Source: Gemmatimonadota bacterium
GTDB lineage: Bacteria > Gemmatimonadota > Gemmatimonadetes > Longimicrobiales > Gaopeijiaceae
Assembly: GCA_009692205.1 (NCBI GenBank)
Contig: SHZR01000002.1
Span: 1 to 64,000 of the forward strand
Length of the DNA stretch: 64,000 bases
Direction: 5' to 3'
Under the pieces are notes generated by a model. It did not search any database. It saw only the letters and a list, made by a program, of their open reading frames with translations, and had not been told where the DNA came from. The translations under genes were made by a program, and so were the position numbers. This document shows, in pieces, positions 1 to 36,250 of the stretch; position 1 is the first letter of the stretch, and every line of letters begins with the position of its first letter.

Positions 1-121
1 GACAGCAGACGAGATGTCGCACGCCTGGATCGCGGTGACCCACCTCGACGAGGAGGGTTACCAGGAGTTGCTCGAGGAGCGCGAAGCGAACCAGGAGCGC
101 AGGATCACGGACCAGGACTGA
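1..121 (+). CDS. C-terminal end of a third PHM-like cytochrome (partial)
   Basis: Only the last 39 codons are inside the window, read from base 2 to the TGA at 119-121. They match the ends of the proteins at 302-1657 and 2987-4345 almost residue for residue, including the D-E-M triplet whose Met is the predicted copper ligand. This is therefore the downstream end of a third tandem copy. A hairpin follows 34 bases after the stop, as it does after the other copies. The heme and first copper site lie outside the window and cannot be judged. Confidence 0.85.
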   Translation, partial: TADEMSHAWIAVTHLDEEGYQELLEEREANQERRITDQD

Positions 122-1799: not shown

Positions 1800-2855
1800 A
1801 TGAAGGCACGCATGACCGCAAGCGGGGTGGCCCTCGGGCTGATCCTGGCGGGCGCCGCGATGGTTCCGGCGCGTCTCCAGGCCCAGGGACCGGATGGGCG
1901 GTGGCCGCTTCAGCCCACATCCGAGATCGGCCGAGTCGTCGCGCCGTTTCTGGAGGGCTGGTATACGAACGCGGACGGGACGTTCACTTACTCGTTCGGC
2001 TACCTGAACCTCAACGGGGACACCGTCGAGATCGCGCTTGGTGAGCACAACATCATCGAGCCCGCCGAGTTCAACGGCCTACAGCCTTCGGTGTTCCTGC
2101 CCGGCCGGCATCGCGGCATGTTCACGTTGACCGTTCCGGCATCCATGCGGGACGCCTCCGTGTGGTGGACGATCACAAACGCGAACGGCGAGGTGACCAA
2201 GGTGCCAGGGCGCACGATGTGGAGCGCCTACATGCTGGACCACGGCCCGCGGCCTCATGGCGCCCAGCCGCCCGTCGTCAAGTTCGACGGGACTCCGGGC
2301 CAGGGGGTTGGACCTCAGGGGATCATGGCGCAGCGCGCGCTGACGGGTTCTGTGGGGACGCCGGTCGAGGTCGTCATCGACGTGAGCGACCCATCCGTTC
2401 GGGACCTGACCGACGCGCGTTTCCGCGATCCGATCTCGGTGCGCGTCGTGTGGACGAAGCACCAGGGGCCGGTCGACGGCAGGGTCGAGTTCACTCGGCA
2501 TCCGTCCACGCCGATTCCGGAGCCACCGGCGGCGGGTAGAGGAGGTCGCGGTCGAGGTGCGGCGGCCCCCGATAGCACGGGTGCTGCTGCTGCTGCTGCT
2601 GGTGCTGGTGCTACCGCAATGGGTGGTGGCGCCGCTGCCGGTGGTGGCGGCGGTGGTGGCAGGGGCGGCGCCCCCGCGGGCCCGAACGAGATCATGGTTC
2701 CCTCGGGAGCCGGGACGGTTCGCGTGCTCGCCACGTTCTCTGCGCCCGGCGAATACCTGCTGCTCGGGCAGGTCGACAACTGGCGTACTCCCGACAGTGG
2801 CTCGAGCGATCAGTGCTGCTGGACGAATGGCTACGTGCGGGTGACGGTCCGCTAG
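1800..2855 (+). CDS. Exported protein of unknown function with Gly/Ala-rich insert
   Basis: 351 residues with a signal peptide (about 1-29, cleavage after Q-A-Q). The mature part looks all-beta: an N-terminal domain to about residue 125, a second domain to about 245, then a low-complexity Ala/Gly insert (about 250-300) encoded by runs of GCT, GGT and GGC, then a final beta segment containing two adjacent Cys (S-D-Q-C-C-W). I do not recognise a named family. It sits between two copies of the PHM-like cytochrome and ends in its own terminator, so an accessory role in that system is possible but unproven. The start has GGAG about 9 bases upstream. Confidence 0.75.
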   Translation: MKARMTASGVALGLILAGAAMVPARLQAQGPDGRWPLQPTSEIGRVVAPFLEGWYTNADGTFTYSFGYLNLNGDTVEIALGEHNIIEPAEFNGLQPSVFLPGRHRGMFTLTVPASMRDASVWWTITNANGEVTKVPGRTMWSAYMLDHGPRPHGAQPPVVKFDGTPGQGVGPQGIMAQRALTGSVGTPVEVVIDVSDPSVRDLTDARFRDPISVRVVWTKHQGPVDGRVEFTRHPSTPIPEPPAAGRGGRGRGAAAPDSTGAAAAAAGAGATAMGGGAAAGGGGGGGRGGAPAGPNEIMVPSGAGTVRVLATFSAPGEYLLLGQVDNWRTPDSGSSDQCCWTNGYVRVTVR

Positions 2856-2986: not shown

Positions 2987-4345
2987 ATGTCCCTGCCCAA
3001 GTGGTCTGTGAGCGCCGTTGCCCTGGTCGCGACTTTCGCGATCCACGGTGCCGTGGACGCTCAGGTCAGCTTCGCGTCGAACGACGCCGCGGAGGTGACG
3101 TACGCGAAGGATGTCGCGTCCATCATCCAGAACAACTGCATGGTCTGTCACCGGCCGGGCGGGATCGGACCGATGGATCTGTTGACGTACGAGGATGCGC
3201 GCCGGTATGCGCGTCGCATCCGCGAGCAGGTGGCCAACCGCATCATGCCTCCGTACTACTACGACAACGATGTCGGCATCCAGCAGTTGGAGCACGATAT
3301 GCGTCTGTCGCAGGACGACATCAACACGGTGGTGGCGTGGGTGGACCAGGGCGCGCCGCTGGGTGACCCGGCGGATATGCCGCCCATGCCCAACCTCATC
3401 GACACCGACGAATGGGACTTCACACCTGAGTTCGGCCAGCCGGACGTGATCGTGAGTTCTACACCGATCGACGTCCCGGCGAACGGACTCGACATGTGGC
3501 ACCGTCCGATCGTGCCAGTAGGGGTGACCGAGGACCGCTGCATCCGGGCCATCCAGGTGAAGCCGACCGGGGATGCGAAGGGCGTGGTGCACCATGCGAA
3601 CTCGACTTTCTCGCGTCCGAACGACTCAGGCGGCTTCGAGGCGACGGGCGACCGCGCGAGCGAGTACGCGATGGGCAAGCTCGGTGAGTTGATCCCCGAT
3701 GGCGTGTGCCGGATTCTTCCGGCGAACTCATATGTCTCTTGGGACATCCACCTCTTCCCGGGTGGACTCGGTGCCGCGGCCCCGAACGCCGTGGTCGAGG
3801 ACAACGTCGTCGCCATGGGCATCTGGCTGTGGCCCGCGGACTACCAGTACGAGTATAAGCAGGACCTGGCGCTCTACGGTATCCGCGCCGGTGGCGAGTT
3901 GGTCTTGAAGCCGCATGGCACGACGATGATGCAGGGCTTCAAGACGTTCGATCATCCGGTGCGTATCGACAGCTTCCAGCCGCACGGGCACCTGCGCCTG
4001 CGGTCTGCGTCGCTGGAGATCCTGTATCCGGAGACGGGGCGCATCGAGGTCATCAGCATGGTCTCGAACTGGAGCGCGGTCTGGCACCAGAGCCATATCT
4101 ATCAGTCCGACGTGGCGCCGTTGGTACCGGCGGGTGGGGTTCTCATCATCAAGCAGTGGTACGACAACACCGAGAACAACCCGAACGTCGTGGACCCGGA
4201 AATGTGGGTCGATGACGGCAGCCGGACGGCGGACGAGATGTCGCACGCCTGGATCGCGGTGACCCACCTCGACGAGGAAGGTTACCAGGAGCTGCTCGAC
4301 GAGCGGACGGCGAACCAGGAGCGCAGGATCACGGACCAGGACTAA
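2987..4345 (+). CDS. Secreted c-type cytochrome fused to PHM-like copper monooxygenase (paralogue)
   Basis: 452 residues, collinear with the protein at 302-1657 apart from one inserted residue near 301. All predicted functional residues are kept: CMVCH 51-55, His pair 202-203, His255, HxH 333/335 and Met418. Changes cluster in the signal peptide and at surface-like positions. DNA similarity is high, and long stretches in the 3' third are identical, which suggests recent duplication or gene conversion. A short TTTTTTG motif shared with the upstream region of the 302 gene lies about 60 bases before the start and may be a common promoter element. The predicted role is the same periplasmic copper-dependent hydroxylation. 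Confidence 0.75.
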   Translation: MSLPKWSVSAVALVATFAIHGAVDAQVSFASNDAAEVTYAKDVASIIQNNCMVCHRPGGIGPMDLLTYEDARRYARRIREQVANRIMPPYYYDNDVGIQQLEHDMRLSQDDINTVVAWVDQGAPLGDPADMPPMPNLIDTDEWDFTPEFGQPDVIVSSTPIDVPANGLDMWHRPIVPVGVTEDRCIRAIQVKPTGDAKGVVHHANSTFSRPNDSGGFEATGDRASEYAMGKLGELIPDGVCRILPANSYVSWDIHLFPGGLGAAAPNAVVEDNVVAMGIWLWPADYQYEYKQDLALYGIRAGGELVLKPHGTTMMQGFKTFDHPVRIDSFQPHGHLRLRSASLEILYPETGRIEVISMVSNWSAVWHQSHIYQSDVAPLVPAGGVLIIKQWYDNTENNPNVVDPEMWVDDGSRTADEMSHAWIAVTHLDEEGYQELLDERTANQERRITDQD

Positions 4346-4440: not shown

Positions 4441-5484
4441 ATGAAGCGCATGGCAGCTGTGGGAATGTCCATCCTGGTGCTCGTCTTCTCGGCCGGATGG
4501 AGACCCGCGGGCGCGCAAGAGACGTTCAGCGTGCACCCCGCGACGCAGGATCCGGCGGTGCGAGTGACGTTGGACGTACTCGCACGGTGGGAGCGTGAGC
4601 TCTCCAACTGGGGCCGCTGGGGCCCCACCGACCAGCATGGCGCGCTCAACCTCATCACGCCCGAGAAGACGGCCCAGGCGGCGCGGTTGGTCCGGGATGG
4701 AGTCACCGTCACGCTCTCTCACTTCGTGAGCGAGGAAGAGGCGATGGACAGCCAGACCTTCGGTCCCACCGAGCACTGGATGACGTCGGTCGATCCAGCG
4801 ACGGGGCTTCCGCGCTTCGCGCTGGACGCCATCAGCTTCTCCCTGCACGACGGCCAACTCTCCCATCTCGACGCTCTCTGTCACTACCGCACCGAGGTGG
4901 ATGGTCAGTTCCGCATCTTCAATGGGTATCCCCAGAACCTCGATGCGGACGGCTGCAAGGACCTCGCGATCGACCGCATGGGACCCGGCTACGTGACGCG
5001 CGGCATCCTCATCGACGTTCCTCTAATGCGGGGCGTGGACTGGCTCGAGCCGAGCACGCCGATCTTCGTTTCGGACCTGGAGGAATGGGAGCGTTTCGCG
5101 GGGGTCCGCGTCGAAGCCGGAGACGTCCTCCTGGTCCGCACCGGCCGCTGGGCCAAGCGGGAGCAAGAGGGGCCATGGGCCTACGGGCAGGGTGGTGCGG
5201 GCCTGCATGCGTCGGTGTTGCCCTGGCTCCATGCGCGCGGCGTGTCGCTGCTCGTGGGCGACGCGGTCAACGATGTCCAACCGTCAGGTGTCGAGGGGAT
5301 CAACCGGCCGGTCCATCAACTCACGCAGGTCACCATCGGGTTGCCCATCGTGGACAACGGGTACCTCGAGGACGTGGCCCGGGAGGCGGCGACTCGGCGC
5401 CGGTGGGAGTTCATGGTCTCGTGGCAGATCCCTCGGATCGTCGGGGGCACCGCCGCGCCTTTCAACGCGATCGCCACGTTCTAG
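4441..5484 (+). CDS. Exported cyclase-family metal hydrolase (kynurenine formamidase-like)
   Basis: 347 residues with a signal peptide (about 1-25, ending A-G-A-Q). The family's metal-binding signature appears as S-H-L-D-A-L-C-H at 141-148 (His142, Asp144, His148), and a conserved G-D-A-V-N-D-V-Q segment lies further on. Cytoplasmic relatives hydrolyse N-formylkynurenine or similar amides; exported, longer versions like this one have unknown substrates. AGGAGG lies about 9 bases before the ATG. It is followed by the DUF5916 gene after 40 bases and may be cotranscribed with it. Confidence 0.8.
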   Translation: MKRMAAVGMSILVLVFSAGWRPAGAQETFSVHPATQDPAVRVTLDVLARWERELSNWGRWGPTDQHGALNLITPEKTAQAARLVRDGVTVTLSHFVSEEEAMDSQTFGPTEHWMTSVDPATGLPRFALDAISFSLHDGQLSHLDALCHYRTEVDGQFRIFNGYPQNLDADGCKDLAIDRMGPGYVTRGILIDVPLMRGVDWLEPSTPIFVSDLEEWERFAGVRVEAGDVLLVRTGRWAKREQEGPWAYGQGGAGLHASVLPWLHARGVSLLVGDAVNDVQPSGVEGINRPVHQLTQVTIGLPIVDNGYLEDVAREAATRRRWEFMVSWQIPRIVGGTAAPFNAIATF

Positions 5485-5524
5485 TGCAGCATCCTCATTC
5501 CTTATTCCTTCGTCGCCCGGCCTG

Positions 5525-8248
5525 ATGCGTCTCCTTCTCTCTGCAGTTGCACTCACGCTCCTCTGGCTTTCGTCTGCGGCCGCGCAGGTCACGGGCGATC
5601 CGGGCGGTGGCTACAACCATGAACTGGCACCGACGGCGAGTGCCGCTCGGTTGACGGGCACGATCTCCGTCGATGGCGTGCTCTCGGAGGCGGCGTGGGG
5701 TTCGGCACCGTCGATCACTGCGCTCCGGCAGACCGTGCCGGTCGAGGGCTCGCCGGTCTCGGAGGCCACAGACGTGCGCATCGTCTACGACGACGCCGCG
5801 ATCTACGTGGCGGCCCGCCTCGACGACCGCGGTGGGGTGACCACGCGCCTCGCGCGTCGGGACGCAGGACTCGGCGACTCGGATCGCTTTGTCGTGCTGC
5901 TCGACAGCTACCACGATCACGAGACGGCCTATCGCTTCTGGACGAATCCGTCCGGAGTGAAGGGCGACGCGCTCGTGAGCGGCAACGCTGGCGGCGGTGG
6001 GGGTGGGGATTCCTCCTGGGACCCGGTGTGGGATCTGGCGACCGCGGTCACGGAGACAGGGTGGATCGTCGAGATGCGGATCCCCTTCAGCCAGCTTCGG
6101 TTCGGCCGAGAGGAAGCGCAGACGTGGGGCTTCCAGGTGGAGCGGACGATCAACCGCCACCAAGAGAACGCGACGTTCCCCTTCACTCCGGTCCTCGAGC
6201 GCTCGGGCGTCTCGCGCTTCGCGCACCTCGGGGGCATTCAGGGCATCGAGCCCGGTCGGCGGCTGGAGTTCCTTCCGTACGTCGTCGCGAGGGGCGAGTA
6301 CCTGCAGTTGCAGGCCCCGGCCGGGGTCACCTTCGCGAACCCGTACCGGAGCGGCTCGGATCACTTCGGCGGCGTCGGGCTCGACCTCAAGTACGGGATC
6401 GCATCGAACGTCACGCTCGACGCCACGGTGAACCCCGACTTCGGTCAAGTCGAGGTGGATCCCTCGGTCATCAACCTGACCGCCTTCGAGACACGCTACG
6501 AGGAGCGCAGGCCGTTCTTCGTCGAAGGAGCCGACATCTTCGCCTTCGGGGAGGCTGGCCCCATGGGAAGCGTCGGGCGGCCGCCGGAGATGTTCTACTC
6601 GAGGCGCATCGGTCGGGCGCCGACGGGATCGGCGCCGTCGGCGGCGGTCTTTGCCGACGTGCCGACCCAGACGACGATCCTGGGGGCCGCCAAAGTGACG
6701 GGGCGGGTGGGGTCGGGGTGGTCGCTCGGCTTGCTGGAGGCGGTGACGGGCGGCGAGTCCGCCGCCTACGTGGACGCGGGCCAGGCGGTCGGTGAGGTCG
6801 AGGTCGAGCCTGCGGCGAATCACCTGGTGGGTCGACTGCGCCGCCAGATCCGCGGCGGGCGAACCCGATTCGGAGTCATGGGAACGGCGCTGAATCGTGA
6901 CGTCGCGGGAACCCCGCTCGAGACCCGGCTACACTCGTCGGCCTACCTCGGCGGCTTGGACTTCGGGTACGACTCCAACGACCGCGTCTGGCTCTTCACC
7001 GGGGCGCTGTCGGGGAGTCGCGTGGCGGGGAACGCGAGTGCCATCAAGCGGACGCAGCAGACGTCCGCTCGCTACTACCAGCGTCCCGACGCCGACCACG
7101 TCGATGTCGATGCGACCGCGACGTCACTGACCGGCGTCTACGCCATGGCGTACGTCGGCAAGCAGGCGGGTCGCTTCACCATGCGGAACGGCTTCGCCTA
7201 CGTGAGCCCGGGCTTCGAGGTCAACGACGGCGGCTTCCAGTCGGAGGCGGACCGGATCCTGGTCGACACGCACTACCAGTACAATCAGCCTCGCCCCGGG
7301 CGCCTCCTGCGCTCCTGGAGCGTGAACGCCAGCCCGGACGGCAAGTTCAACACGGCCGGCGACTTGATCTTTGCGAACGTGAATTCCCAACTCAGCGTCG
7401 AGCTGCTGAACTATTGGCGCTCGAGCTTGAGGCTGCAGTTCGATCCATGGACGGATGACGACCAGCTGACGCGCGGTGGGCCGATGGCCCGCAACCCCGG
7501 GGCCTTCGACGCGCGCTTCAATCTCAACTCCGATGGGCGCCGCCCCATGGCCCTGAGGGGCACGTACGGCTGGTCCAACGACAAGAGTGGCGCGTGGGCC
7601 CGGAACATCGATGTCGGAGTGAGCGCTCGCTTCCGCGAGACACTTCAGCTCAGCATAGGGCCCTCGTACGTACGCTCGCACACGACGGCGCAGTACGTCA
7701 CGCGTATTCCGGATCGGCTCGCGACCGCGACGTACGACTCGCGGTACGTGTTCGCGAACCTCGACCGCACGACCGTCTCGCTGGATACGCGCGTGGATGT
7801 GACGCTCTCGCCGGCGCTGTCGCTCCAGCTCTACCTCGAGCCCTTCATCTCCGTCGGGGACTACCGGTCGCTCAAGGAGTTCCGTGCGCCGAACACCTAC
7901 GACTTCCTCGAGTACGGCGTGGACGCGGGCACACTCGTGCCGAATGCGTCGGGCGGCTTCGACGTGGATCCCGACGGCGCCGGGGCGGCGCCCGGCTTCA
8001 CGCTCTCTGACCGCGACTTCAGCTACCGGAGCCTGATCGGCAACGCCGTGCTGCGGTGGGAGTGGCGGCCGGGCTCGACGCTGTTCCTGGTGTGGCAGCA
8101 GCGGCGCATCAACAGCGTGACTGGCCAAGAGTCGGGCACGCGCCCGTGGGTCGGCAACTTCGACCTCGGGCGAGACGCCGACGACATGTTCGACGTCTCG
8201 CCCGACAACATCCTCATGGTCAAGGTGAACTACTGGCTGAACCCGTGA
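5525..8248 (+). CDS. DUF5916 outer-membrane protein with CBM9-like N-terminal domain
   Basis: 907 residues from the ATG at 5525, chosen because it opens a clean signal peptide (M-R-L-L-L-S-A-V... ending A-A-A-Q). The open frame extends upstream, but that part overlaps the cyclase gene. Residues about 35-225 resemble the family 9 carbohydrate-binding fold that starts these proteins. The remainder is the DUF5916 region, rich in alternating hydrophobic, aromatic and Gly strands and ending in an aromatic-containing segment, consistent with an outer-membrane barrel. The function of the family is unknown; it is common in Gemmatimonadota and Bacteroidota. Confidence 0.85.
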   Translation: MRLLLSAVALTLLWLSSAAAQVTGDPGGGYNHELAPTASAARLTGTISVDGVLSEAAWGSAPSITALRQTVPVEGSPVSEATDVRIVYDDAAIYVAARLDDRGGVTTRLARRDAGLGDSDRFVVLLDSYHDHETAYRFWTNPSGVKGDALVSGNAGGGGGGDSSWDPVWDLATAVTETGWIVEMRIPFSQLRFGREEAQTWGFQVERTINRHQENATFPFTPVLERSGVSRFAHLGGIQGIEPGRRLEFLPYVVARGEYLQLQAPAGVTFANPYRSGSDHFGGVGLDLKYGIASNVTLDATVNPDFGQVEVDPSVINLTAFETRYEERRPFFVEGADIFAFGEAGPMGSVGRPPEMFYSRRIGRAPTGSAPSAAVFADVPTQTTILGAAKVTGRVGSGWSLGLLEAVTGGESAAYVDAGQAVGEVEVEPAANHLVGRLRRQIRGGRTRFGVMGTALNRDVAGTPLETRLHSSAYLGGLDFGYDSNDRVWLFTGALSGSRVAGNASAIKRTQQTSARYYQRPDADHVDVDATATSLTGVYAMAYVGKQAGRFTMRNGFAYVSPGFEVNDGGFQSEADRILVDTHYQYNQPRPGRLLRSWSVNASPDGKFNTAGDLIFANVNSQLSVELLNYWRSSLRLQFDPWTDDDQLTRGGPMARNPGAFDARFNLNSDGRRPMALRGTYGWSNDKSGAWARNIDVGVSARFRETLQLSIGPSYVRSHTTAQYVTRIPDRLATATYDSRYVFANLDRTTVSLDTRVDVTLSPALSLQLYLEPFISVGDYRSLKEFRAPNTYDFLEYGVDAGTLVPNASGGFDVDPDGAGAAPGFTLSDRDFSYRSLIGNAVLRWEWRPGSTLFLVWQQRRINSVTGQESGTRPWVGNFDLGRDADDMFDVSPDNILMVKVNYWLNP

Positions 8249-10692: not shown

Positions 10693-12027
10693 ATGCGATT
10701 TCCCAACGTTTGTCGCCCCCTGCTCGGGCTCCTGTTCTTGGGCGCGGCGACCGCCGCGACGGCCCAGGAGCGGCCTGCGCCGCCGCGCGCGCGCGCGCCT
10801 GCGGCGGTCATGAGCTTCCGGGGTGCCGACTGGCTCGAGCGCCCCCAGCGGCTGCAGGAAGAGCGTCCCGCCGAAGTGCTTCGGGTCATGGATCTGCAGC
10901 CTGGCGACGTCGTCGCGGACATTGGCGCGGGCTCGGGCTACTTCACGCGTCGGATGGCGCCCCTCGTGGCGCCCACGGGGACCGTCTACGCGGTCGACGT
11001 GCAGCCGGAGATGCTTGATCTCCTCGCGGAGAGCGTGGAAGAAGCGGGACTCACGGGAGTCGTTCCCGTGCTCTCCACCGCCGACGATCCCGCACTGCCC
11101 GAGGGGTCCGTCGACTGGATGCTGCTCGTCGACGTGTACCACGAGTTCGCCAACCCCACGACGATGCTCGAGAAGATGCGTCAGGCGCTCAAGCCGACAG
11201 GGCGGGTCGCGCTCGTCGAGTATCGTGTCGAGGACGGCTCGGCGGCCCAAATCCGGTCCGAGCATCGGATGTCGGTCCTCCAGGTGTTGTTGGAGTGGGA
11301 GGCGGCCGGCTTCGAGCTCGTCGAGTTGCACGAGTTCCTGCCGAGTCAGCATCTGTTCATTCTGCAGCCGACCTCGGCGTCCGGCGCTCCCCGCGCCGCG
11401 GCTCGGCCGATGGTCGCGCACTACGACCTCGTGGAAGCCATCGCGGAAGGGCGCGTCGAGGTGGTGGGCACGGGCGCGGGGGAGGAAGGGGTGAGCCTCA
11501 CGATTCGCCGGACGAGACCCGAGAACATGGTCGTCACGCTCCCGGTCGGCACGTACTTCGAGGCTCCTGGCGAGCCCGGCGACATGATTGCCCGGCGCGA
11601 CGGCGTGATGCTGCTCGTCGAGGATGGCGCGCGGCCCTGGTCGATCCCCGCGCGCAGGGTGAACCAGACCGCGCCCGTGCCGGGGCCGTCCGACCGGCTG
11701 GAGGTCCGCTCGGCGGACGAGCGCGCCGAGCTCCGTGACCTGGCGTGGCTCTTCCAAGGACTCGACATCTTTCCCGCGATCGCACCCACGGTGGAGCAAA
11801 TCGCCATCTGGATCGCGGTGGAGGACCGCGGGTGGGCGGAGCTCTCGGCCCACGCGTCGGCGAATTCGATCCACTCGGCGAACGCGGTGGGCTTGGCCGC
11901 CGCGCACGTGAACGCGATCGGCATCGACATCAAGCAGAAGCGGATCTGGGCGGAGCGCTCGAGCTTCGTTCCCGCCCTGACGGATGAAGGGCTGAAGCGC
12001 CTCTTCGCGGATCTGGAGGGCAATTGA
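10693..12027 (+). CDS. Exported class I SAM methyltransferase with extra C-terminal domain
   Basis: 444 residues from the ATG at 10693, chosen because it begins a signal peptide (about 1-25, ending A-T-A-Q); the frame is open further upstream. Residues about 45-240 are a Rossmann methyltransferase, with the SAM loop V-A-D-I-G-A-G-S-G at 74-82 and D-V-Q-P-E-M after strand 2. Residues about 255-444 form a second domain I do not recognise, with a helical C-terminal half. A secreted SAM-dependent methyltransferase is odd because SAM is not expected in the periplasm; the fold may be used for another purpose. Its stop overlaps the TTG start of the PQQ dehydrogenase. Confidence 0.75.
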   Translation: MRFPNVCRPLLGLLFLGAATAATAQERPAPPRARAPAAVMSFRGADWLERPQRLQEERPAEVLRVMDLQPGDVVADIGAGSGYFTRRMAPLVAPTGTVYAVDVQPEMLDLLAESVEEAGLTGVVPVLSTADDPALPEGSVDWMLLVDVYHEFANPTTMLEKMRQALKPTGRVALVEYRVEDGSAAQIRSEHRMSVLQVLLEWEAAGFELVELHEFLPSQHLFILQPTSASGAPRAAARPMVAHYDLVEAIAEGRVEVVGTGAGEEGVSLTIRRTRPENMVVTLPVGTYFEAPGEPGDMIARRDGVMLLVEDGARPWSIPARRVNQTAPVPGPSDRLEVRSADERAELRDLAWLFQGLDIFPAIAPTVEQIAIWIAVEDRGWAELSAHASANSIHSANAVGLAAAHVNAIGIDIKQKRIWAERSSFVPALTDEGLKRLFADLEGN

Positions 12028-13760
12028 GGCACATCGTCGGGCTGGCGGTGCTCGTCGCTTGGGTGCCCTCGCTCGCGGTCGCCCAGTCGCCTCTCGAACG
12101 CTACACCCCCGTGACGGACGCGATGCTCCTCGATCCGCCCGCCGGGGAATGGTTGATGTGGCGCCGGACGTACGATGCCTGGGGGTACAGCCCGCTCGAC
12201 CAGATCGGTATCACCAACGTCGGCTCGCTGCGCCTCGCGTGGGCGTGGACCATGGAGGGGGGCCTCCAGGAGACCACGCCGCTGGTGCACGACGGCGTGA
12301 TGTTCCTGCCGCAGGCGTGCGACTTCATCGAGGCGGTGGACGCCCGCGACGGGACGCTGCTGTGGGAATACCGGCGGCCACGTATGGAGCACGCGGCCGT
12401 GCTGGCGTGCGCGAACCGCAACGCGACGCTGTATCGGGACCGACTCTACATCGCCACCCACGACGCGTTCCTCGTGGCGCTCGACGCGCGCACCGGGGCA
12501 GTGGTTTGGGAGCAGAAGGTCGGGGACTGGGAGATCGGTCAGCACTATTCCGGCGGCCCCATGATCATCAAGGGCCGTGTGGTAGCCGGTATGTCCGGGT
12601 GCTACTACATCAACACGCGATGCTGGATCTCCGCACACGATGCCGACACGGGCCAGGAGATCTGGCGCACGTACACGATTCCTGGGGAAGGGGAGCCGGG
12701 ATCGGAAACCTGGGGGGGCGCCCCGGCCGAGGAGCGGCGCGGCGGCTCGGCGTGGATGCCGCCGAGCTTCGACCCCGAGCTCAACCTCATCTTCTCGGGC
12801 GTAGGCGTGCCCATCCAATGGGGATCCGTCCAACGGGGGACCGAAGACGGGGCCGTCCTGTACACGAACTCGACGATCGCGCTCGACGCGGACACCGGTG
12901 AACTCGTCTGGTACTTCCAGCACCTGCCGGGCGACGAGTGGGACCAGGATCATCCCTTCGCGCGGCTGGTGGTGGAGACCGAGGTTACGCCCGCCGCGGA
13001 CGAGGTGGAGTGGATCAATCCGGATCTCGTGCCCGGGGAGCGTCGCAAGGTGATCACCGGGCTTCCGGGGAAGCCCGCGCTCGTGTGGACCCTCGACGCG
13101 GCGACAGGGGACTTCCTCTGGGCGCGCCAGACCAGCTATCAGAACGTGATCGTGGGGGTGGACGCGCGGAATCGGCACGGCATCGCGAATCCGGCTCTCC
13201 GGTTTCCTGCCATCGGGCAGGAGTTGCTCGTCTGCCCCACCTTGAACGGCGGTGGGATCAACTGGCAGGCGATCGCTTACAGCCCCCAGACCAACGCACT
13301 CTACGCGCCGACCAACAACACGTGCATGACGTATGCCTTGAATCCCACCCCGGCGACCCTGGGCGGCTATCATGACTCCGCGGAGTATCAGCGCGTGTCG
13401 GTGCCAGGCTCGGACGGGCAGGTCGGGCTGTTCTCCGCGGTCGACGTGCGGACCGGGCGCACCCTATGGGAGCGCCGTCAGCGCGCCGGCTTCGGAGGCT
13501 CCGTGCTCACGACCGGTGGCGGACTCGTGTTCGCGACCGACGACGCCCGCCGCTTCCGCGCGTTCGACGCCAGGACCGGCGAGGTGCTCTGGGAGCAGAT
13601 TCTCAACTCGAGCGCCGGCGGTTTCCCGGTCAGCTACATGCTGGATGGGGTCCAATACATCGCCATCGCGGCCGGCGGAGGCCCCAACGCCCGCAACCTC
13701 ACGCCCGAGATTCGGCAGCGCCCGGGCGGAAACATGCTGTTCGTGTTCAGGCTGCCCTGA
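12024..13760 (+). CDS. PQQ-dependent dehydrogenase, possible lanthanide type
   Basis: 578 residues, starting with TTG overlapping the previous stop. The signal peptide is about 1-20. W-motif repeats of an eight-bladed quinoprotein propeller run through the chain. The catalytic Asp is Asp307 in D-E-W-D-Q-D, with a second Asp two places later (Asp309). That D-x-D pattern marks lanthanide-using alcohol dehydrogenases such as XoxF; calcium enzymes lack the second Asp. The vicinal Cys pair common in alcohol dehydrogenases of this fold is absent, and there is no heme domain. The substrate is unknown. It is translationally coupled to the methyltransferase. Confidence 0.8.
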   Translation: MRHIVGLAVLVAWVPSLAVAQSPLERYTPVTDAMLLDPPAGEWLMWRRTYDAWGYSPLDQIGITNVGSLRLAWAWTMEGGLQETTPLVHDGVMFLPQACDFIEAVDARDGTLLWEYRRPRMEHAAVLACANRNATLYRDRLYIATHDAFLVALDARTGAVVWEQKVGDWEIGQHYSGGPMIIKGRVVAGMSGCYYINTRCWISAHDADTGQEIWRTYTIPGEGEPGSETWGGAPAEERRGGSAWMPPSFDPELNLIFSGVGVPIQWGSVQRGTEDGAVLYTNSTIALDADTGELVWYFQHLPGDEWDQDHPFARLVVETEVTPAADEVEWINPDLVPGERRKVITGLPGKPALVWTLDAATGDFLWARQTSYQNVIVGVDARNRHGIANPALRFPAIGQELLVCPTLNGGGINWQAIAYSPQTNALYAPTNNTCMTYALNPTPATLGGYHDSAEYQRVSVPGSDGQVGLFSAVDVRTGRTLWERRQRAGFGGSVLTTGGGLVFATDDARRFRAFDARTGEVLWEQILNSSAGGFPVSYMLDGVQYIAIAAGGGPNARNLTPEIRQRPGGNMLFVFRLP

Positions 13761-13836: not shown

Positions 13837-14898
13837 ATGAGCCGACGGTCGAAGTGGACTTCATTCCTCACGGCGCCAGTGCTGGCGCTCGCCTTGGTCG
13901 GGCCTCTGCAGGCCCAGAGCCGAGCCACCGCCACCAACGTTCCTGAGATCCCCATCCAGGCCGTCGAGGGCTTCTTCAAGCTCCCGGATGGTCTGTACTT
14001 CGGAGAAGGCATCGGCATCGCCACCAACTCCCAAGGCCACATCTTCGTCTACCACCGCAGCGGCGACACGCGCCTCTTCGAGTTCGACGCTGATGGCAAC
14101 TTCGTGCGCGAGCTCGGCGTCGGCATTTACGGCTTCGAGATGGCCCATAAGGTACGCGTCGACAGCCAGGACAACATCTGGGTGGTCGACGAGGGCACCA
14201 ACATGGTCATCAAGATGAACCCTGAGGGCAGGGTCATGATGGTGATCGGCCGGCGCCCCGAGCCCACCGCTCCGGGGGCGGGGACCGCGGTGATTCCTAC
14301 CGACGGCTCGGGCCCGAACCACAAGTACTTGCTCGCTCGCCCCACGGACGTCACGTGGGACCAGCAGGGCAACATCTTCGTCACCGACGGCTACTTCAAT
14401 CACCGCGTCGTGAAGTACTCGCCCGATGGCATCTACATGGGGCAGCACGGGAATGGGCAGAACGGGAGCGGTCCGGATCAGATGAGCACGCCGCACACGA
14501 TGGCGTCGGACTCGCAGGGCAACATCTACGTGGGCGACCGCGGCAATGCGCGCGTGAAGGTCTTCGACAGCAACCTCAACCTGCTGCGCATGTACACGAA
14601 CGTCGGCAACCCGTGGGAGATCTGCATCTCGCCCGGGCCGCACCAGTACCTGTTCGTGTCGAATTCCAACCCGGACTCGAACCCAGCGGCGTCGTGGAAC
14701 CAGTCGGGCGAGGTCTACAAGATGGAGCTCGACGGGACGATCATCGGCCGATTCGGACGGGCCGGTAAAGAGCCCGGCGAGTTCCAGACGATCCACGGCA
14801 TGGACTGCCGGAATCCCAATGAGATCTACACGTCCGAGATCTCGGCGTGGCGGGCCCAGAAGATCCTAGTGGGCCCTCGGCCCGTATCTCAAGACTGA
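13837..14898 (+). CDS. PAL-like NHL propeller lyase, all catalytic ligands present
   Basis: 353 residues from the ATG at 13837 (GGAG about 9 bases upstream; in-frame ATGs also at 13801 and 13828). The signal peptide ends near L-Q-A-Q. Recalled against animal peptidyl-alpha-hydroxyglycine alpha-amidating lyase, blade after blade aligns: Arg74 in V-Y-H-R-S-G-D, zinc His104, catalytic Tyr186 in S/T-D-G-Y-x-N-x-R, zinc His220 in T-P-H-T, zinc His320 in I-H-G-M. All five are kept. The predicted role is a periplasmic zinc lyase cleaving a carbinolamide-type product; the partner would be a PHM-like monooxygenase such as 302-1657. The substrate is unknown. The next gene is a degenerate paralogue. Confidence 0.75.
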   Translation: MSRRSKWTSFLTAPVLALALVGPLQAQSRATATNVPEIPIQAVEGFFKLPDGLYFGEGIGIATNSQGHIFVYHRSGDTRLFEFDADGNFVRELGVGIYGFEMAHKVRVDSQDNIWVVDEGTNMVIKMNPEGRVMMVIGRRPEPTAPGAGTAVIPTDGSGPNHKYLLARPTDVTWDQQGNIFVTDGYFNHRVVKYSPDGIYMGQHGNGQNGSGPDQMSTPHTMASDSQGNIYVGDRGNARVKVFDSNLNLLRMYTNVGNPWEICISPGPHQYLFVSNSNPDSNPAASWNQSGEVYKMELDGTIIGRFGRAGKEPGEFQTIHGMDCRNPNEIYTSEISAWRAQKILVGPRPVSQD

Positions 14899-14916: not shown

Positions 14917-15999
14917 ATGAATCGGTCAGTGAAGCTCCTTGCCGTGGCGGCGCTCGTCGCTGTCCCGTCGCTCTCGGCGCAGGCACGCGCGCCCGAGATC
15001 CAGTACACCGCGGTGGACGCCCTAGGCGGCTTCCCCGCCGACATCCACCTCGGCGAAGTCGCCGGCGTGGCCCGCAACTCACGCAACGAGATCTACGTGT
15101 ATACGCGCACGGGGAATCCGTTGATGACGATGGGCACCTCCCGGTACATCGCGGTCTCGAGCTCCCGGGTGTTCAAGTTCGATGCGCGCGGCCGCTACGA
15201 GCGCGAGATCGGTCAGGACATTTACGGGTCGCTCTTCGCCCAGCAGGCCCGCGTCGATCGTGACGATAACGTCTGGATCGTGGACCGTATGTCCGGTCAG
15301 GTGATCAGGTTCAATCCGCAGGGCCGGATCGACTTGGTGCTGTCCCGTAAGCCCGAGGTCCTGGGTGGCGCGGTGGCGGCGCCTCGGGGCGGTGGGCCGG
15401 GTGGCGGCGGTGGTGGCGGTGGCGCGCCTGCCGCGGGCGGTGGTGGACGTGGCGGGGCCCCCACAATGCCGGAGGGCGAGTCGTTCAACGGCCCAACCGA
15501 CGTCGTGTGGGACTCCCAGGGCAACATCTACGTGGCCGATGGAGTCGCCCGGACGCGCATCGCGAAGTATGACTCCGAGGGGCGATTCATCACGAACTTC
15601 GCCGCACCGGGAGCCGCTAACATCTCCGGCATGCAGATCGACGCGCAGAACAACCTGTATGTCGCCGATTACGGCAATCAGCGCATCGTGGTGGTGAACT
15701 CACAGAACGGCCAGCAGATTCGCGAGATGCGGGGCTTCGGCTCGCCGATGGCGATCTGCATTTCGCCGGCACCGAACCAGTTCCTGTACGTGTCGAACTC
15801 GAACCCGCCTGACAACCTCGAGGTCGGGGGCGAGATCTACAAAGTGCGGCTCGACGGCACGATCGTCGGGCGCTTCGGCACGGTCGGGAAGCGTGTCGGC
15901 CAGTTCGGCACGGTGAACGCGATCGACTGCCGGGTCGAGAACGACCTGCTGGTGGGAGAGGTAGGCAACTGGAGGGTGCAGCGGGTCACGCTCCGGTAG
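14917..15999 (+). CDS. PAL-like NHL propeller without the zinc ligands
   Basis: 360 residues with a signal peptide (about 1-23). It is clearly a paralogue of the preceding protein, but every zinc His and the catalytic Tyr are replaced: Q, S and N stand at the three His positions (A-Q-Q-A, I-S-G-M, V-N-A-I) and Val-Ala at the Tyr position (D-G-V-A). The Arg of Y-T-R-T-G-N remains. A Gly-rich linker (about residues 155-180) interrupts one blade. It is therefore probably a non-catalytic binding or scaffold propeller. AGGAG lies 8 bases before the ATG, and 18 bases separate it from the catalytic paralogue, indicating one operon. Confidence 0.8.
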   Translation: MNRSVKLLAVAALVAVPSLSAQARAPEIQYTAVDALGGFPADIHLGEVAGVARNSRNEIYVYTRTGNPLMTMGTSRYIAVSSSRVFKFDARGRYEREIGQDIYGSLFAQQARVDRDDNVWIVDRMSGQVIRFNPQGRIDLVLSRKPEVLGGAVAAPRGGGPGGGGGGGGAPAAGGGGRGGAPTMPEGESFNGPTDVVWDSQGNIYVADGVARTRIAKYDSEGRFITNFAAPGAANISGMQIDAQNNLYVADYGNQRIVVVNSQNGQQIREMRGFGSPMAICISPAPNQFLYVSNSNPPDNLEVGGEIYKVRLDGTIVGRFGTVGKRVGQFGTVNAIDCRVENDLLVGEVGNWRVQRVTLR

Positions 16000-16035: not shown

Positions 16036-16401
16036 TTGGCAACGATCCTGATCGTCGATGACGACGAGAACGATCGGGTCGGGCTCGCCGCCGCTCTGCG
16101 TTCGGAAGGTTACGAGATCCTGCTGGCGCGCGACGGGGACGAGGCGCTCGACCTCTACCTCGCGCGGCGCGTGCATGTCGTGGTCACGGACATGGTGATG
16201 CCGGGTAGGGACGGGCTCAGCCTCATCTCCGCGATCCGGGACGTCGATCCGGACGCATCGATCGTGGCCGTCTCCGGGAAGAGCCAGAGCCAACTCGAGG
16301 CCTCGAAGATCTACGGGGCCCACAGCATGCTCGAGAAGCCGATCGACCCCAAGGCCCTAGTGACCGCGGTGCGGGAGGCTGTGGCCGCGCGCGGAACGTG
16401 A
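16036..16401 (+). CDS. Single-domain response regulator (receiver only)
   Basis: 121 residues, TTG start. Receiver-domain hallmarks are present: acidic triad D-D-D at 8-10, phospho-acceptor Asp52 in V-V-T-D-M-V-M-P, the Ser switch in V-A-V-S-G-K and Lys in E-K-P-I. No output domain follows; the stop overlaps the GTG of the epoxide hydrolase gene. It may act by protein contact or shuttle phosphate. No kinase adjoins it. Confidence 0.85.
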   Translation: MATILIVDDDENDRVGLAAALRSEGYEILLARDGDEALDLYLARRVHVVVTDMVMPGRDGLSLISAIRDVDPDASIVAVSGKSQSQLEASKIYGAHSMLEKPIDPKALVTAVREAVAARGT

Positions 16402-17648
16402 GGCCCGGCGCGCACGGACCCTTCGCGATGTGCGTCGCGCTGTGCGGTTTCGCCGCGTGCGCCGGTGAGCCTGCCGCAGAGGGCACACCCTCCGATCCCG
16501 ATGCCGTGCGTCCGTTCACCATCGCTGTGTCCGATGCCGTGCTCTCCGACCTCGAGGAGCGGCTCGCGCGCACGCGGCTGCCCGATGCCGGTCCGGGCGC
16601 GGCATGGGAGATGGGTACCGACCGCGCCTACCTCGATGGGCTGCTGGAGTATTGGCGCGAGGGGTTCGACTGGCGGGCGCAGGAGCGAGCGCTCAACGAG
16701 CTCGATCACTTCACGACGACGATCGACGGCGTGGATGTGCACTTCATCCACCAGCGCTCACCGAACCCCGACGCTGTGCCGCTCCTGCTCGTGCACGGAT
16801 GGCCGGGCTCCTTCGTCGAGTTCGTCGGTCTCGTAGGCCCGCTGACCGACCCCGCGGCGCACGGGGGCGTCGGCGCCGACGCCTTCCACGTGGTCATCCC
16901 GTCCTTGCCGGGGTTCGGCTTCTCAGGCAAGCCGACCGAGCGGGGGTATGGCCCGGAGAAGATGGGGGACATGCTCGCCGCTCTCATGGAGCGTCTCGGG
17001 TACGATCGGTACGGCGTTCAGGGCGGGGACTGGGGCGCGATCATCGGGCGGTCGCTCGCGGGGAACTACCCGGACCACGTGATCGGCCTGCACAGCAACT
17101 TCATGACGGGCGGGCCGCCCGCCGGCGTGGCCGACCCGAACGAGGGGGTGCCGGCGGTCGAGCTCGAGCTCCGGGCGGAGCGCACGGAGGCGTTCGCGGA
17201 AGGAAGCGCCTACCAAGAGATCCAGGGCACCAAGCCCCAGACGCTCGGCTACGGCCTGAACGACTCGCCTGCGGGCCTCGCGGCATGGATCGTCGAGAAG
17301 TTCCAGGGCTGGAGTGACAACGACGGAGACCCGGAGACGGCGTTCACGAGGGACCAGATCCTCACGAACGTCACGCTCTACTGGGTGACGGAGACCATCA
17401 CGTCTTCGACGCGCATCTACTACGAGTCCCGCCACACGCCTGCGACACGCCCCGTGCGCTACGTGGAGGTCCCGACGGGAGTGGCCGTCTTCCCGAAGGA
17501 GATCTACTTCGTCCCGCGTCGTTGGGCCGAGGCTCGCTACAACATCGTGCGTTGGACGGTGATGCCGCGCGGCGGCCACTTCGCCGCGCTCGAGGAGCCC
17601 GAGCTGCTGGTCGAGGACGTGCGCGCGTTCTTCAGAGACCTGCGTTAG
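16398..17648 (+). CDS. Epoxide hydrolase family alpha/beta hydrolase, likely lipoprotein
   Basis: 416 residues, GTG start overlapping the receiver gene stop. A short hydrophobic N-terminus ends in F-A-A-C (Cys21), a near-lipobox. Residues 36-110 fit the epoxide hydrolase N-terminal domain. The hydrolase core follows, with the oxyanion motif H-G-W-P-G at 133-137, nucleophile Asp211 in G-G-D-W-G, and the catalytic His near the end in G-G-H-F-A-A. An Asp nucleophile rather than Ser supports epoxide hydrolase over esterase. Tyr residues in the cap are plausible proton donors. It converges with metZ across 10 bases. Confidence 0.85.
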   Translation: MRPGAHGPFAMCVALCGFAACAGEPAAEGTPSDPDAVRPFTIAVSDAVLSDLEERLARTRLPDAGPGAAWEMGTDRAYLDGLLEYWREGFDWRAQERALNELDHFTTTIDGVDVHFIHQRSPNPDAVPLLLVHGWPGSFVEFVGLVGPLTDPAAHGGVGADAFHVVIPSLPGFGFSGKPTERGYGPEKMGDMLAALMERLGYDRYGVQGGDWGAIIGRSLAGNYPDHVIGLHSNFMTGGPPAGVADPNEGVPAVELELRAERTEAFAEGSAYQEIQGTKPQTLGYGLNDSPAGLAAWIVEKFQGWSDNDGDPETAFTRDQILTNVTLYWVTETITSSTRIYYESRHTPATRPVRYVEVPTGVAVFPKEIYFVPRRWAEARYNIVRWTVMPRGGHFAALEEPELLVEDVRAFFRDLR

Positions 17649-30414: not shown

Positions 30415-31749
30415 TCAATCTGCTGGGTCCAGCGTTCCCGCCGCGCGCCTCCGCCGGGCCTCTGCGTCGCGCGCGCGCTGCAGGACCTCCGGCGGAATCT
30501 CGTCTCCGACGACGAGGCCCTGCGGGGTGGCCGGCGCGAAGTAGATGCGCGCGTTGGCCATCTCCTGCGTGGTCTCCTCGCCGTACGTCACGTCGATGGT
30601 CGGGTCGGGGTTCCACCGATTGCCGGACGAGTTGTCGAACCACCACGTCATGTGGAGCGTCGAGCCCGCGGGTACGAAGCGCGGCTCGAGGTACTCGTAG
30701 AGGAACTGCCAGTCGAAGTGGTAGTTCGGGACCGAGAGCAGCGTCTCCATCCGGCCGTCCGGGTACTCGAGCTCGTACTTCATCGCCTTGCCGCGGTAGT
30801 GCATGTGCGGCCCCATGGAGAGGAGGTAGGTGTCCTCCGGGATCGGCCGCTCCTTGGTCACCACGTAGTTGGCGTCACCCGCCGGGATGCGAAACTCGCG
30901 CTGCATGTTGATGTCGGTGTCGACCACGTAGTCGATGACGTCGCCCGGCTCGTAGAACGAGAACCCGGCTCGAGTGTTGTCGACGATCGCGGTGCCCGGC
31001 CCGGTGTCCTTGTGGTAGTGCATGTTGACCGTGATGAAGGGATCCTCGGGCAACAGGATGCCCCACCCCTCGGGGAACGAGAACGGTCCGCGACCCGGCA
31101 CCCCGACGCCCATGTGGCTCGACACGATGTGGTGGACCCACGGACCTCCGGGCTGGAGCTCCGCCTGCGACACCCAGCGGGCCTCGGTGTGTGCGCCCTC
31201 GGGGACGGGCATGTTGAACGTCGGCTGCCAGTCCTCGACGTCGTCACCAAGGGGCACGGGCTCCTCGAGCTCCACGACGAGGTCGGGCTCGCCGATCCAC
31301 CAGCCGGACTCCGGCACAGCCGATCCGGACGCTGCGATCTCCGCGAGCTCCGCGGCGGACGGGGCGTCGTGGGGGTCGCCCGCGGGCGCTCCCGCGTCCA
31401 CCCAGGCGATCAGCGTCGCGCGCTCGGCGGGCTCCAGGTAGCGCTCGCTCTTGAACTCACCCTTGTGCTGCTCGTGGGCACCCCAGGGCGGCATGTATCC
31501 GCTCTCGATCGCGCTCTTGATCCTCGGCGCCCACCTGCGCGCTTCTTCGTAGGACATCAGCGACATCGGGGCGGTGAGCCCGCCGACGTTCGGACCCGCC
31601 GGCTGATGACACGCGACGCAGTTCCGGTAGAAGACCGGGAGCGCGTCGGCGTAGAAGGTGGGCGCCGGGCCCGACTGGGCGGCCGCTTCGACGGCGACGC
31701 CGAGTGCGACGGCCAGGGGAAGAATCACTCTTACGGTCGCGATGCTCAT
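30415..31749 (-). CDS. Secreted c-type cytochrome fused to PHM-like copper monooxygenase (distant copy)
   Basis: 444 residues with a signal peptide (about 1-24). Heme site C-V-A-C-H at 44-48. It is a distant relative of the array at 302-4345. The copper ligands are recognisable: His pair 206-207 (W-V-H-H), M-H-Y-H at 243-246, HxH at 315/317 in G-P-H-M-H-Y-R-G, and Met397 in T-Q-E-M. The H-x-H-Y-R-G form is the commoner one among bacterial copper type II monooxygenase homologues. It lies about 2 kb from a PAL-like propeller, repeating the pairing seen at the other locus. The start is upstream-flanked by GGAGG about 8 bases away. The substrate is unknown. Confidence 0.78.
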   Translation of the reverse strand: MSIATVRVILPLAVALGVAVEAAAQSGPAPTFYADALPVFYRNCVACHQPAGPNVGGLTAPMSLMSYEEARRWAPRIKSAIESGYMPPWGAHEQHKGEFKSERYLEPAERATLIAWVDAGAPAGDPHDAPSAAELAEIAASGSAVPESGWWIGEPDLVVELEEPVPLGDDVEDWQPTFNMPVPEGAHTEARWVSQAELQPGGPWVHHIVSSHMGVGVPGRGPFSFPEGWGILLPEDPFITVNMHYHKDTGPGTAIVDNTRAGFSFYEPGDVIDYVVDTDINMQREFRIPAGDANYVVTKERPIPEDTYLLSMGPHMHYRGKAMKYELEYPDGRMETLLSVPNYHFDWQFLYEYLEPRFVPAGSTLHMTWWFDNSSGNRWNPDPTIDVTYGEETTQEMANARIYFAPATPQGLVVGDEIPPEVLQRARDAEARRRRAAGTLDPAD

Positions 31750-33791: not shown

Positions 33792-34718
33792 CTATCTCCT
33801 CTCGAACTTCTTCAGGTTCTGGTAGACCACCTCACCCGCGTAGATGCTCCCGTGCGAGTCCATCGAGACCCCCTCGGGCAGTGCCTCGTCGATCACGGTG
33901 ATCTCGGAGAAGTCGCTGGCGTTCGCGATGATGATGCCTTTGCGGAGCTGGTAATCCGCCACGAGCACGACGTCGTCGTCGGTGATGTGGATGCCACTCG
34001 CCATGATGGCGGGCCACACCGCGAGGAAGCGGCCGCTCTGGTCGAAGACTTGGATGCGCTGGTTGATGCGATCCCCGACGAAGAGCCGGCCCTGCGAGTC
34101 GAAGGCGAGCGTGTGGGGCTCGTTGAACTGGCCGAGGAGCGTGCCCTCCTGCCCCCACTGCATGATGAACTCGCCGGTGGGCGAGAACTTCACGATGCGG
34201 TCGTTGCCGTGCCCGTCGGCCACGAAGATGTCGCCGTTGGGAGCGATCGCCACGTCGGCGGGGCCGTCGAAGGTGGTCTCGGTGGCTCCGGCCACGCCGG
34301 GCTGGCCGAGCGTCATCAGCAGGCGGCCCTGCGGGGTGAACTTCTGGACCGTATGGCCCTTGCCGTTCGCGCCGCGCGCGTCCGTGAGCCAGAGGTTGCC
34401 GTCGGCGTCCAGCGTCGAGCCGTGCGGCCACACGAACAGGCCCGCGCCCCAGAGCGCCGTGATCGTCCCGGCCTGGTTGTAGCGGAGCACGGGCATGGCG
34501 TTCTCGCGCCCGCCCTGAATGCAGTCGCCCGCGAAGCAGCGGTGGAAGACCCAGAGGTTGTCCTGGGCGTCGATCTCGATCCCGATGGTCTGGCCCCACC
34601 CCGCGACCCCTCCGGGGAGAGGCGGCCAGCCTTCCACGAGTCGATACGACGGCGCCTGACCTGCGGCGGACGTCGCCGCGACCCCGGCGACCAAGAGCGT
34701 GATTCCCAACCGGTACAT
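33792..34718 (-). CDS. PAL-like NHL propeller, one zinc ligand altered
   Basis: 308 residues from the ATG at 34716-34718, which opens a signal peptide ending S-A-A-G-Q; the frame is open upstream. The blade sequences track animal PAL closely: V-F-H-R (Arg60), W-P-H-G (His99), A-D-V-A-I-A-P-N-G and V-A-D-G-H-G-N-D-R-I-V, E-P-H-T-L-A-F (His202). The catalytic Tyr position is His170 and the third zinc position is Glu282 (L-P-E-G-V). Glu can bind zinc, so activity is not excluded. It is transcribed with the two-module VOC gene and lies 2 kb from the PHM-like gene at 30415. Confidence 0.75.
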   Translation of the reverse strand: MYRLGITLLVAGVAATSAAGQAPSYRLVEGWPPLPGGVAGWGQTIGIEIDAQDNLWVFHRCFAGDCIQGGRENAMPVLRYNQAGTITALWGAGLFVWPHGSTLDADGNLWLTDARGANGKGHTVQKFTPQGRLLMTLGQPGVAGATETTFDGPADVAIAPNGDIFVADGHGNDRIVKFSPTGEFIMQWGQEGTLLGQFNEPHTLAFDSQGRLFVGDRINQRIQVFDQSGRFLAVWPAIMASGIHITDDDVVLVADYQLRKGIIIANASDFSEITVIDEALPEGVSMDSHGSIYAGEVVYQNLKKFERR

Positions 34719-34852
34719 GTAGACCCCCAGCGGTGTAGATTCGGCCGACGTCCGTAACCTGCGACCCTCCCGGCGCCGCCGCAAACACCAACTCGGCGCG
34801 GCCCTGGAGTGTCGTACGGGCAGGTCTACAGCACCCCATAGGAGTCGATGAC

Positions 34853-36250
34853 ATGACGATCCGCCGCGCGCTCTTGGCTTTCGCCGCGCTCACGTCGCCA
34901 TTCGCAGCTTCGCTGTCCGCCCAGACGACCAACGATCCGTTCCCCGACCCCATCGGCGACGACTGGGCGCCGCTCGTGGTGGACTACACCGAGTTCGCGA
35001 CCATCCCGGGGGTGGGCGGCGCGGCACCCCGCATGACGAACGTGACCGACGAGCCCGGCACGCGCCGCATCTTCGTCAACGACATGGTGGGGCCGATCAC
35101 GAGCATGAGCTACGACGGAAGAACGGTCACGCCGTACGTGAACACGGACGACCCGCGCTGGGGATTCCGGGTCCAGTCGCAGGGCAGCGAGCGCGGCCTG
35201 CAGAGCTTCGCGTTCCACCCGCAGTTCGGTCAGCAGGGCGCGCCCGGGTACGGCAAGTTCTATACGTGGGTGGACGTGGTCGACACCGCTCCGCCGGCCG
35301 ACTTCACACCGCTCGGTGGTGGCGACACGCACGACACGGTCCTGCTCGAGTGGACGGCGCGCAGCGCAGCCGCCGCGACGTACGACGGTGGGCCGCCGCG
35401 CGAACTCATGCGCCTCCAACAGCCCTACCCGAACCACAACGCCGGCCAGCTCTCGTTCCATCCGACCGCGGCGCCCGGGAGCCCCGACTTCGGCAAGCTC
35501 TACGTCGGCGTGGCCGACGGCGGCAGTGGCGGCGACCCGCACAACATGGCGCAGAACCTCGGTTCGATCTTCGGGAAGATCCTGCGCATCGATCCGCTCG
35601 CGTCGAACAGCCGGAACGGGAAGTACGGCATTCCTGCCGACAATCCGTTCGTGAGCCGGAGCGGCGCGCTCGGCGAGATCTACGCGTATGGTGTGCGCAA
35701 CCCGCAGAAGTTCGCGTGGGATCCGACCAACGGGAACTTCTTCATGAGCGACATCGGCCAGAACACGGTCGAGGAGCTCACGCTCGTGCCCCGCGGCGCC
35801 AACCTCGGCTGGAACGTCTGGGAGGGGAGCTACCGGTATGTCGGGCGTGACGGCGTCGACATGAGCAATCCACGCGGCGACGCCTCCGTGACCTTCCCGG
35901 TCGCCGAATACGCGCAGCCCGATTCTCTCCTTCTGGGGCAGTCCGCCGCGGTCGGCCTGGCGGTCTACCGTGCCAATCGAGTTGCGGCGATCTCGAACAT
36001 GGTCATCTGGGGCGACAACCCGACCGGCGAGGTCTTCGCCACGCCCGCCGATAATCTGCCGAGTGGGGGGCAGGCATCGATTCGGCGGGTGCTGTTCAGC
36101 GACGAAGGCCAGGCCAAGACGCTGCTCCAGCTCATTCAGAAGGACGTTCCGAGCGCGACCAATGCGGACCTGCGCCTCGGGCTCGGGCCGGAGGGCGCGG
36201 TGTTCGTGCTCAACAAGGCGGACGGCATCGTCCGGCGCCTCGGCCGCTGA
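34853..36250 (+). CDS. PQQ-dependent soluble sugar dehydrogenase family protein
   Basis: 465 residues, signal peptide about 1-23 (ending S-A-Q). Six-bladed glucose/sorbosone dehydrogenase fold: F-A-F-H-P-Q-F near 120, P-N-H-N-A-G-Q-L-S-F (the active-site His region), G-K-I-L-R-I-D, Y-G-V-R-N-P-Q-K-F-A-W-D and G-x-N-L-G-W-N-V-W-E-G. These motifs bind PQQ and calcium in soluble glucose dehydrogenase. It oxidises a sugar or related alcohol in the periplasm; the exact substrate is unclear. It diverges from the PAL-like gene and is 46 bases ahead of the esterase. Confidence 0.85.
   Translation: MTIRRALLAFAALTSPFAASLSAQTTNDPFPDPIGDDWAPLVVDYTEFATIPGVGGAAPRMTNVTDEPGTRRIFVNDMVGPITSMSYDGRTVTPYVNTDDPRWGFRVQSQGSERGLQSFAFHPQFGQQGAPGYGKFYTWVDVVDTAPPADFTPLGGGDTHDTVLLEWTARSAAAATYDGGPPRELMRLQQPYPNHNAGQLSFHPTAAPGSPDFGKLYVGVADGGSGGDPHNMAQNLGSIFGKILRIDPLASNSRNGKYGIPADNPFVSRSGALGEIYAYGVRNPQKFAWDPTNGNFFMSDIGQNTVEELTLVPRGANLGWNVWEGSYRYVGRDGVDMSNPRGDASVTFPVAEYAQPDSLLLGQSAAVGLAVYRANRVAAISNMVIWGDNPTGEVFATPADNLPSGGQASIRRVLFSDEGQAKTLLQLIQKDVPSATNADLRLGLGPEGAVFVLNKADGIVRRLGR

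Follow-up and report, generated by a model that had tools for sequence, protein, structure and literature searches.

A PAL-like propeller and cytochrome-fused copper monooxygenases in a Gemmatimonadota genome: a possible periplasmic repertoire for two-step oxidative cleavage

In animals, PHM and PAL act together to amidate peptide C-termini. In insects the two are separate proteins, and their separation as such is therefore not new. The type II copper monooxygenases, represented by PHM and DBH, bind copper at two sites, CuH (H107, H108 and H172) and CuM (H242, H244 and M314), and in rat PHM the substrate glycine carboxylate is bound by Arg240, Asn316 and Tyr318. Published work presents the PHM family as widespread among eukaryotes (PMC8812541), and Tyr651 and Arg703 of human PAM, equivalent to rat Y654 and R706, constitute a catalytic pair (PMC10303134). 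A search of the open literature found no earlier description of a bacterial PHM/PAL pair.

The window analysed here, 64 kb in length, comprises the first part of contig 7 of a genome of 2.72 Mb in 61 contigs (97.9% complete), and among named loci that share its gene order the closest is L030, from a Gemmatimonadetes metagenome genome, whose lyase is 87% identical. At 13837-14898, on the forward strand, the window encodes P0001, an exported PAL-like lyase propeller of 353 amino acids that has NHL repeats as well as a signal peptide. Alignment of P0001 by MAFFT with the chain sequence of rat PAL (PDB 3fvz, letters checked) recovered the complete catalytic signature of the rat enzyme. Arg74 (codon 14056-14058) corresponds to Arg533; His104 (14146-14148), His220 (14494-14496) and His320 (14794-14796) correspond to the zinc ligands His585, His690 and His786; and Tyr186 (14392-14394) and Arg235 (14539-14541) correspond to the catalytic Tyr654 and Arg706. 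These six residues are invariant in 50 orthologues from three phyla that are 51-87% identical. The first-pass annotation had credited the protein with every catalytic element of PAL, and the five residues that it named were all right; it missed Arg235. At two further positions P0001 departs from rat PAL, with T318 for M784 and G321 for the calcium ligand D787; in the second of these columns, relatives have Q (27), G (12), E (8), A (4) and M (1). Because of these two changes, the protein is named PAL-like, with the catalytic centre of PAL, and not PAL. Its predicted model (meb44d2fc4534, pLDDT 87.5) matches PAL in fold, and in a Foldseek search 3fvz ranked third (E 1.6e-21) with a query TM-score of 0.70, the highest among the matches listed; Thin NHL domains stood just above it by E-value, and PAL shared the best E-values with the top NHL matches. 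Taken together, the alignment and the orthologues support the view that an exported propeller, separate from the monooxygenase, carries the catalytic set of PAL; metal binding and lyase activity are predicted for it.

The lyase gene is followed by that of a tandem paralogue, PAL2 (14917-15999, forward strand), which has the signature RQVSYN and is devoid of the zinc histidines and the tyrosine. Among 51 related loci of Acidobacteriota, Gemmatimonadota and Gammaproteobacteria, PAL2 comes after the 13837-type lyase in all 47 loci with enough contig, the other four contigs ending first, and besides PAL2 these loci have no other constant neighbour. In the tree, the PAL2 forms that have lost the zinc site constitute one clade (support 99), and seven basal PAL2 proteins retain all six catalytic residues; by this tree, the zinc site was lost once in PAL2 history, and it is usually, not always, absent. 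A second lyase group, read in 40 loci with one or two per genome, has the same six residues complete in the best match of 40/40 sampled. A degenerate copy directly adjoins the intact one in 3 of these 40 loci, and in another Gemmatimonadota genome a single frame of 884 residues joins a degenerate propeller to an intact one (L241:7624-10275, forward strand). Such degenerate copies, lying beside intact propellers or fused to them, suggest that live and dead propellers touch each other. The lyase/PAL2 pairs of the gammaproteobacterial loci L032, L033 and L035-L037, at 67-71% identity, are nested within Gemmatimonadota in the tree, which suggests that the pair has passed between phyla. Directly upstream of the lyase, a PQQ-dehydrogenase-like quinoprotein (12024-13760, forward strand) scores below the TIGR03075 and 'acido-empty-quinoprotein' cut-offs. 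An upstream PQQ dehydrogenase was considered as a conserved lyase partner and rejected, since same-strand adjacency is confined to the closest relative, apart from a weak match in L042. An epoxide hydrolase is encoded at 16398-17648 (forward strand).

The copper monooxygenases of the window are fused to a cytochrome c domain. Two tandem copies on the forward strand, at 302-1657 and 2987-4345, are 88% identical, and a diverged member lies at 30415-31749 on the reverse strand; all three carry CxxCH followed by the H, H, H, HxH, M series of copper ligands. A fragment reported earlier at 1-121 is indeed a PHM-like remnant; its extent is 2-121 (forward strand), and it preserves the final 39 codons of a third tandem copy, 95% identical, which is truncated by the contig start. 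Across 40 diverse members, invariance is limited to nine columns, six of which hold the copper ligands H202, H203, H255, H333, H335 and M418, assigned by the order of motifs rather than from measured geometry. CxxCH, which marks the N-terminal heme c domain, is present in 38 of the 40 members, and the combined heme and copper motif is complete in 60/60 monooxygenase loci. An AlphaFold2 model (pLDDT 86) matches PHM and DBH in fold, Foldseek ranks 1-31 all being DBH or PHM (E 2e-11 to 7e-9). The first-pass annotation had described PHM-like proteins in which both copper sites are present and a heme c domain is fused, and on each of these points it is borne out. Sequence profiles say far less: PF03712 is matched by 4/40 members with an E threshold of 0.1 (6.4e-4 for the strongest), 30415-31749 scores 11.1 against a Pfam cut-off of 23 (below gathering), 302-1657 and 2987-4345 have no match to PF01082 or PF03712, and the family profile retrieved no PHM from PDB sequences at E up to 10, so the likeness to PHM is visible by structure comparison only. 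By fold and copper sites the family is part of the PHM/DBH superfamily, yet it is not PHM, and it probably works like PHM/DBH. The fused heme c suggests an electron source other than ascorbate. Elsewhere in the same genome, two monooxygenase genes have a broken frame (C15:27105-28690 and C22:127843-129135; a frame shift and an internal TAG), reflecting either real decay or assembly error.

The monooxygenase has a partner of its own, here termed G. The G protein of the window (1800-2855, forward strand) is exported and consists of an N-terminal conserved domain and a C-terminal Ig-like domain with a CCWTN motif; it has no Pfam match, and comparison of the G family with Pfam, NCBIfam and PDB gave nothing beyond weak PKD/Ig-like matches in other members. 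A CCW motif is near-invariant in the C-terminal part of the family. In loci mainly from Gemmatimonadota, the G gene adjoins the monooxygenase in 66/80, although the diverged copy at 30415-31749 lacks an adjoining G protein; all 67 G copies lie on the monooxygenase strand, and 65 of the 67 overlap it or lie within 214 bases, as measured from stop-to-stop frames. Neighbouring genes encode a PF04199 cyclase-like amidohydrolase (4441-5484, forward strand), for which amide products could be substrates, and a DUF5916/CBM9 protein (about 5516-8248, forward strand).

The two enzymes are encoded as separate exported proteins, as had been claimed, the PAL catalytic set occupying a propeller of its own and the monooxygenase being fused to heme c instead. 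The further suggestion that PHM and PAL form one linked unit was not supported, the constant partners being PAL2 and G. A PHM-PAL operon as a general rule was rejected, a full-signature lyase lying within about 9 kb in only 1/60 monooxygenase loci and lyase-monooxygenase pairs within 2 kb across eight genomes numbering 5 observed against 4.8 expected. Within 5 kb, 22 pairs were observed against 9.3 expected in these genomes, with a loose 2.4-fold excess at 5-10 kb. Three direct PAL/PHM/G neighbourhoods occur in this genus, namely PHM-G-PAL on C18, G-PHM-PAL on C15, with a split frame for the monooxygenase, and PAL-PHM-G in genome G131.

Co-occurrence across genomes is strong. The monooxygenase is present in 48/49 genomes with the 13837-type lyase, against a background, from evenly drawn genomes, of 30/149 Acidobacteriota and 50/150 Gemmatimonadota (20-33%); the Fisher p-values of 5e-24 and 2e-17, respectively, overstate the certainty because genomes cannot be counted as independent samples. 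Few genomes hold the 13837-type lyase itself (7/150 Gemmatimonadota and 5/149 Acidobacteriota), and G225, one of the five Acidobacteriota that carry it, falls outside the 30 genomes positive for the monooxygenase. An appearance of weak co-occurrence in the 7/150 survey came from the 13837-type profile only and was altered by the second lyase group, which is found in 47/50 monooxygenase-positive and 23/100 monooxygenase-negative Gemmatimonadota (n=150; Fisher p 8e-18, to be read with the same reserve). Since the two families co-occur strongly, the proposal does not fall on a lack of genomic co-occurrence. Part of the association may come from shared ancestry or lifestyle.

The reading that we prefer, and to which we give an even chance, is a periplasmic repertoire for two-step oxidative cleavage that pairs every catalytic protein with a partner of its own and in which hydroxylation is followed by zinc-lyase cleavage of small N-substituted substrates. 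It builds on the folds, metal-site residues, partner genes, expansion and genome co-occurrence observed here, from which we infer metal binding, activity, substrate class, electron route, the order of the steps and the roles of PAL2 and G. The first module would be the two-copper monooxygenase of PHM/DBH fold with its N-terminal heme c, encoded beside the G protein. Electrons from a periplasmic donor would reach CuH through the fused heme c, not from ascorbate, and O2 would be activated at CuM, so that a small substrate is hydroxylated at a C-H bond adjacent to a heteroatom. The second module would consist of the zinc lyase with the PAL catalytic centre and its zinc-less paralogue PAL2, a putative stabilising or specificity subunit. 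Zinc and Tyr186/Arg235 would cleave the stable N-substituted (N-acyl) hemiaminal (carbinolamide) left by the first module, releasing an amide or amine together with an aldehyde, for example glyoxylate. With numerous paralogues of the two families in one genome, a wide range of substrates would be covered, mainly in catabolism. Oxidative N-dealkylation, one of the chemistries named by the first-pass annotation, may be involved. The invariant lyase set, the copper ligands, the folds, the co-occurrence, the three adjacent loci and the constancy of PAL2 and G all speak for the two-step reading; against it stand the rarity of adjacency between the modules, the second lyase group in 23/100 monooxygenase-negative Gemmatimonadota and the lack of conservation of Met784 and Asp787.

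Several of the same observations can be read differently. The two families might be real enzymes of separate pathways, with monooxygenase products that need no lyase and a lyase that acts on other compounds, co-expanded through a shared lifestyle of oligotrophic scavenging. Such an arrangement would account for the different constant partner of each family, for the looseness of clustering between families, for the genomes that hold the lyase signature without the monooxygenase, and for the abundance of other NHL propellers in this genome. It sits poorly with co-occurrence that is strong in both directions and with the direct PAL-PHM-G adjacency at three loci of the genus, and we regard it as a substantial possibility, though one that we would not expect to be right.

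More doubtful is the view that P0001 has no catalytic function and is an NHL binding protein whose histidines belong to the ordinary NHL consensus. By sequence, TRIM/Thin NHL domains score equal or better, and 'PHG' is common in NHL repeats. Several of the six residues are also present in variant propellers of the RHHHRE type, which have His for Tyr, Glu for the third zinc His and a Cys after the Arg. One such variant is encoded in the window at 33832-34953 (reverse strand), about 2 kb from the diverged monooxygenase. Others occur elsewhere in the genome (C15:142614-143795, C40:287-1438, C51:5669-7444 and C2:138-1598); the variants form one clade (support 99) and may have a different metal site. 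However, all six positions, His320 and Tyr186 included, are invariant not only in the 50 orthologues but also in 40 genomes of the distant second group, and the tandem paralogue lost the catalytic set in one step while its fold was kept, which makes a purely binding role improbable.

The number of paralogues bears on substrate. The genome has about 13-14 genes for monooxygenases, nine for propellers that bear the lyase signature and seven for those of the variant type, in addition to the dead PAL2, and related genomes have 11-21 monooxygenases each; such numbers fit a catabolic array serving many substrates better than one dedicated peptide modification. Furthermore, the residues that bind the peptide carboxylate in PHM are replaced in most of the 40 members, Arg240 by Q331 (31/40), Asn316 by H420 (34/40) and Tyr318 by W422 (33/40), with the local sequence of rat PHM checked, and this exchange for Gln, His and Trp makes peptidylglycine an unlikely substrate. 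True C-terminal amidation of peptides or N-acylglycines as in animals, split over two proteins, is consequently disfavoured (amidation was one of two chemistries that the first-pass annotation envisaged) and the least probable account, despite the complete PAL catalytic centre and the PHM fold with both copper sites, since conserved Gln, His and Trp take the place of the carboxylate-binding residues and some 10-20 paralogues per genome are more in keeping with catabolism.

Returning to the two-step repertoire, what is new is a heme-fused bacterial branch with a near-constant G partner, a lyase pair, one live and one dead, that three phyla retain, and the strong tendency of the two families to occur in the same genomes. 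If the reading is true, certain soil and freshwater bacteria that are uncultured and among the most abundant hold, in each genome, at least a dozen unstudied copper monooxygenases with matching zinc lyases, G gains a name as a new partner family, a catalytic propeller is kept beside a dead copy across phyla, one fusion included, and an experimental route opens to the origin of animal peptide amidation. A wider version, which we consider unlikely and put forward tentatively, would have bacteria of three phyla use amidation-type two-step chemistry as a broad periplasmic oxidative N-dealkylation, carried out by a heme-fed PHM-fold enzyme with G and a live/dead zinc-lyase pair, with the animal enzyme as a late specialised descendant.

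Compared with known systems, P0001 resembles the ScyE/ScyF family and the LIC_12708 NHL proteins of NCBIfam in being an exported bacterial NHL propeller, but these are distant, and it falls far below the curated cut-off for ScyF (72.5 against 350 bits). TRIM71, Thin, PknD and NHLRC2, NHL propellers that lack enzyme activity and of which the last was judged to be without catalytic residues (PMC6107167), share its fold and NHL repeats, whereas P0001 has the complete invariant catalytic set. PHM and DBH share with the bacterial monooxygenase a common predicted fold and the copper sites HH/H and HxH/M; the bacterial family differs in its N-terminal heme c domain, its G partner, an identity of 10-15%, a weak or absent Pfam match, and Q/H/W in place of the carboxylate-binding residues of PHM. 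Rat PAL (PAM residues 498-820, PDB 3fvz) is, like P0001, a six-bladed NHL propeller with all six catalytic residues. In contrast to it, P0001, about 21% identical over the Foldseek alignment, has not kept the calcium ligand Asp787 or Met784, is not fused to a monooxygenase, and is paired with a zinc-less paralogue.
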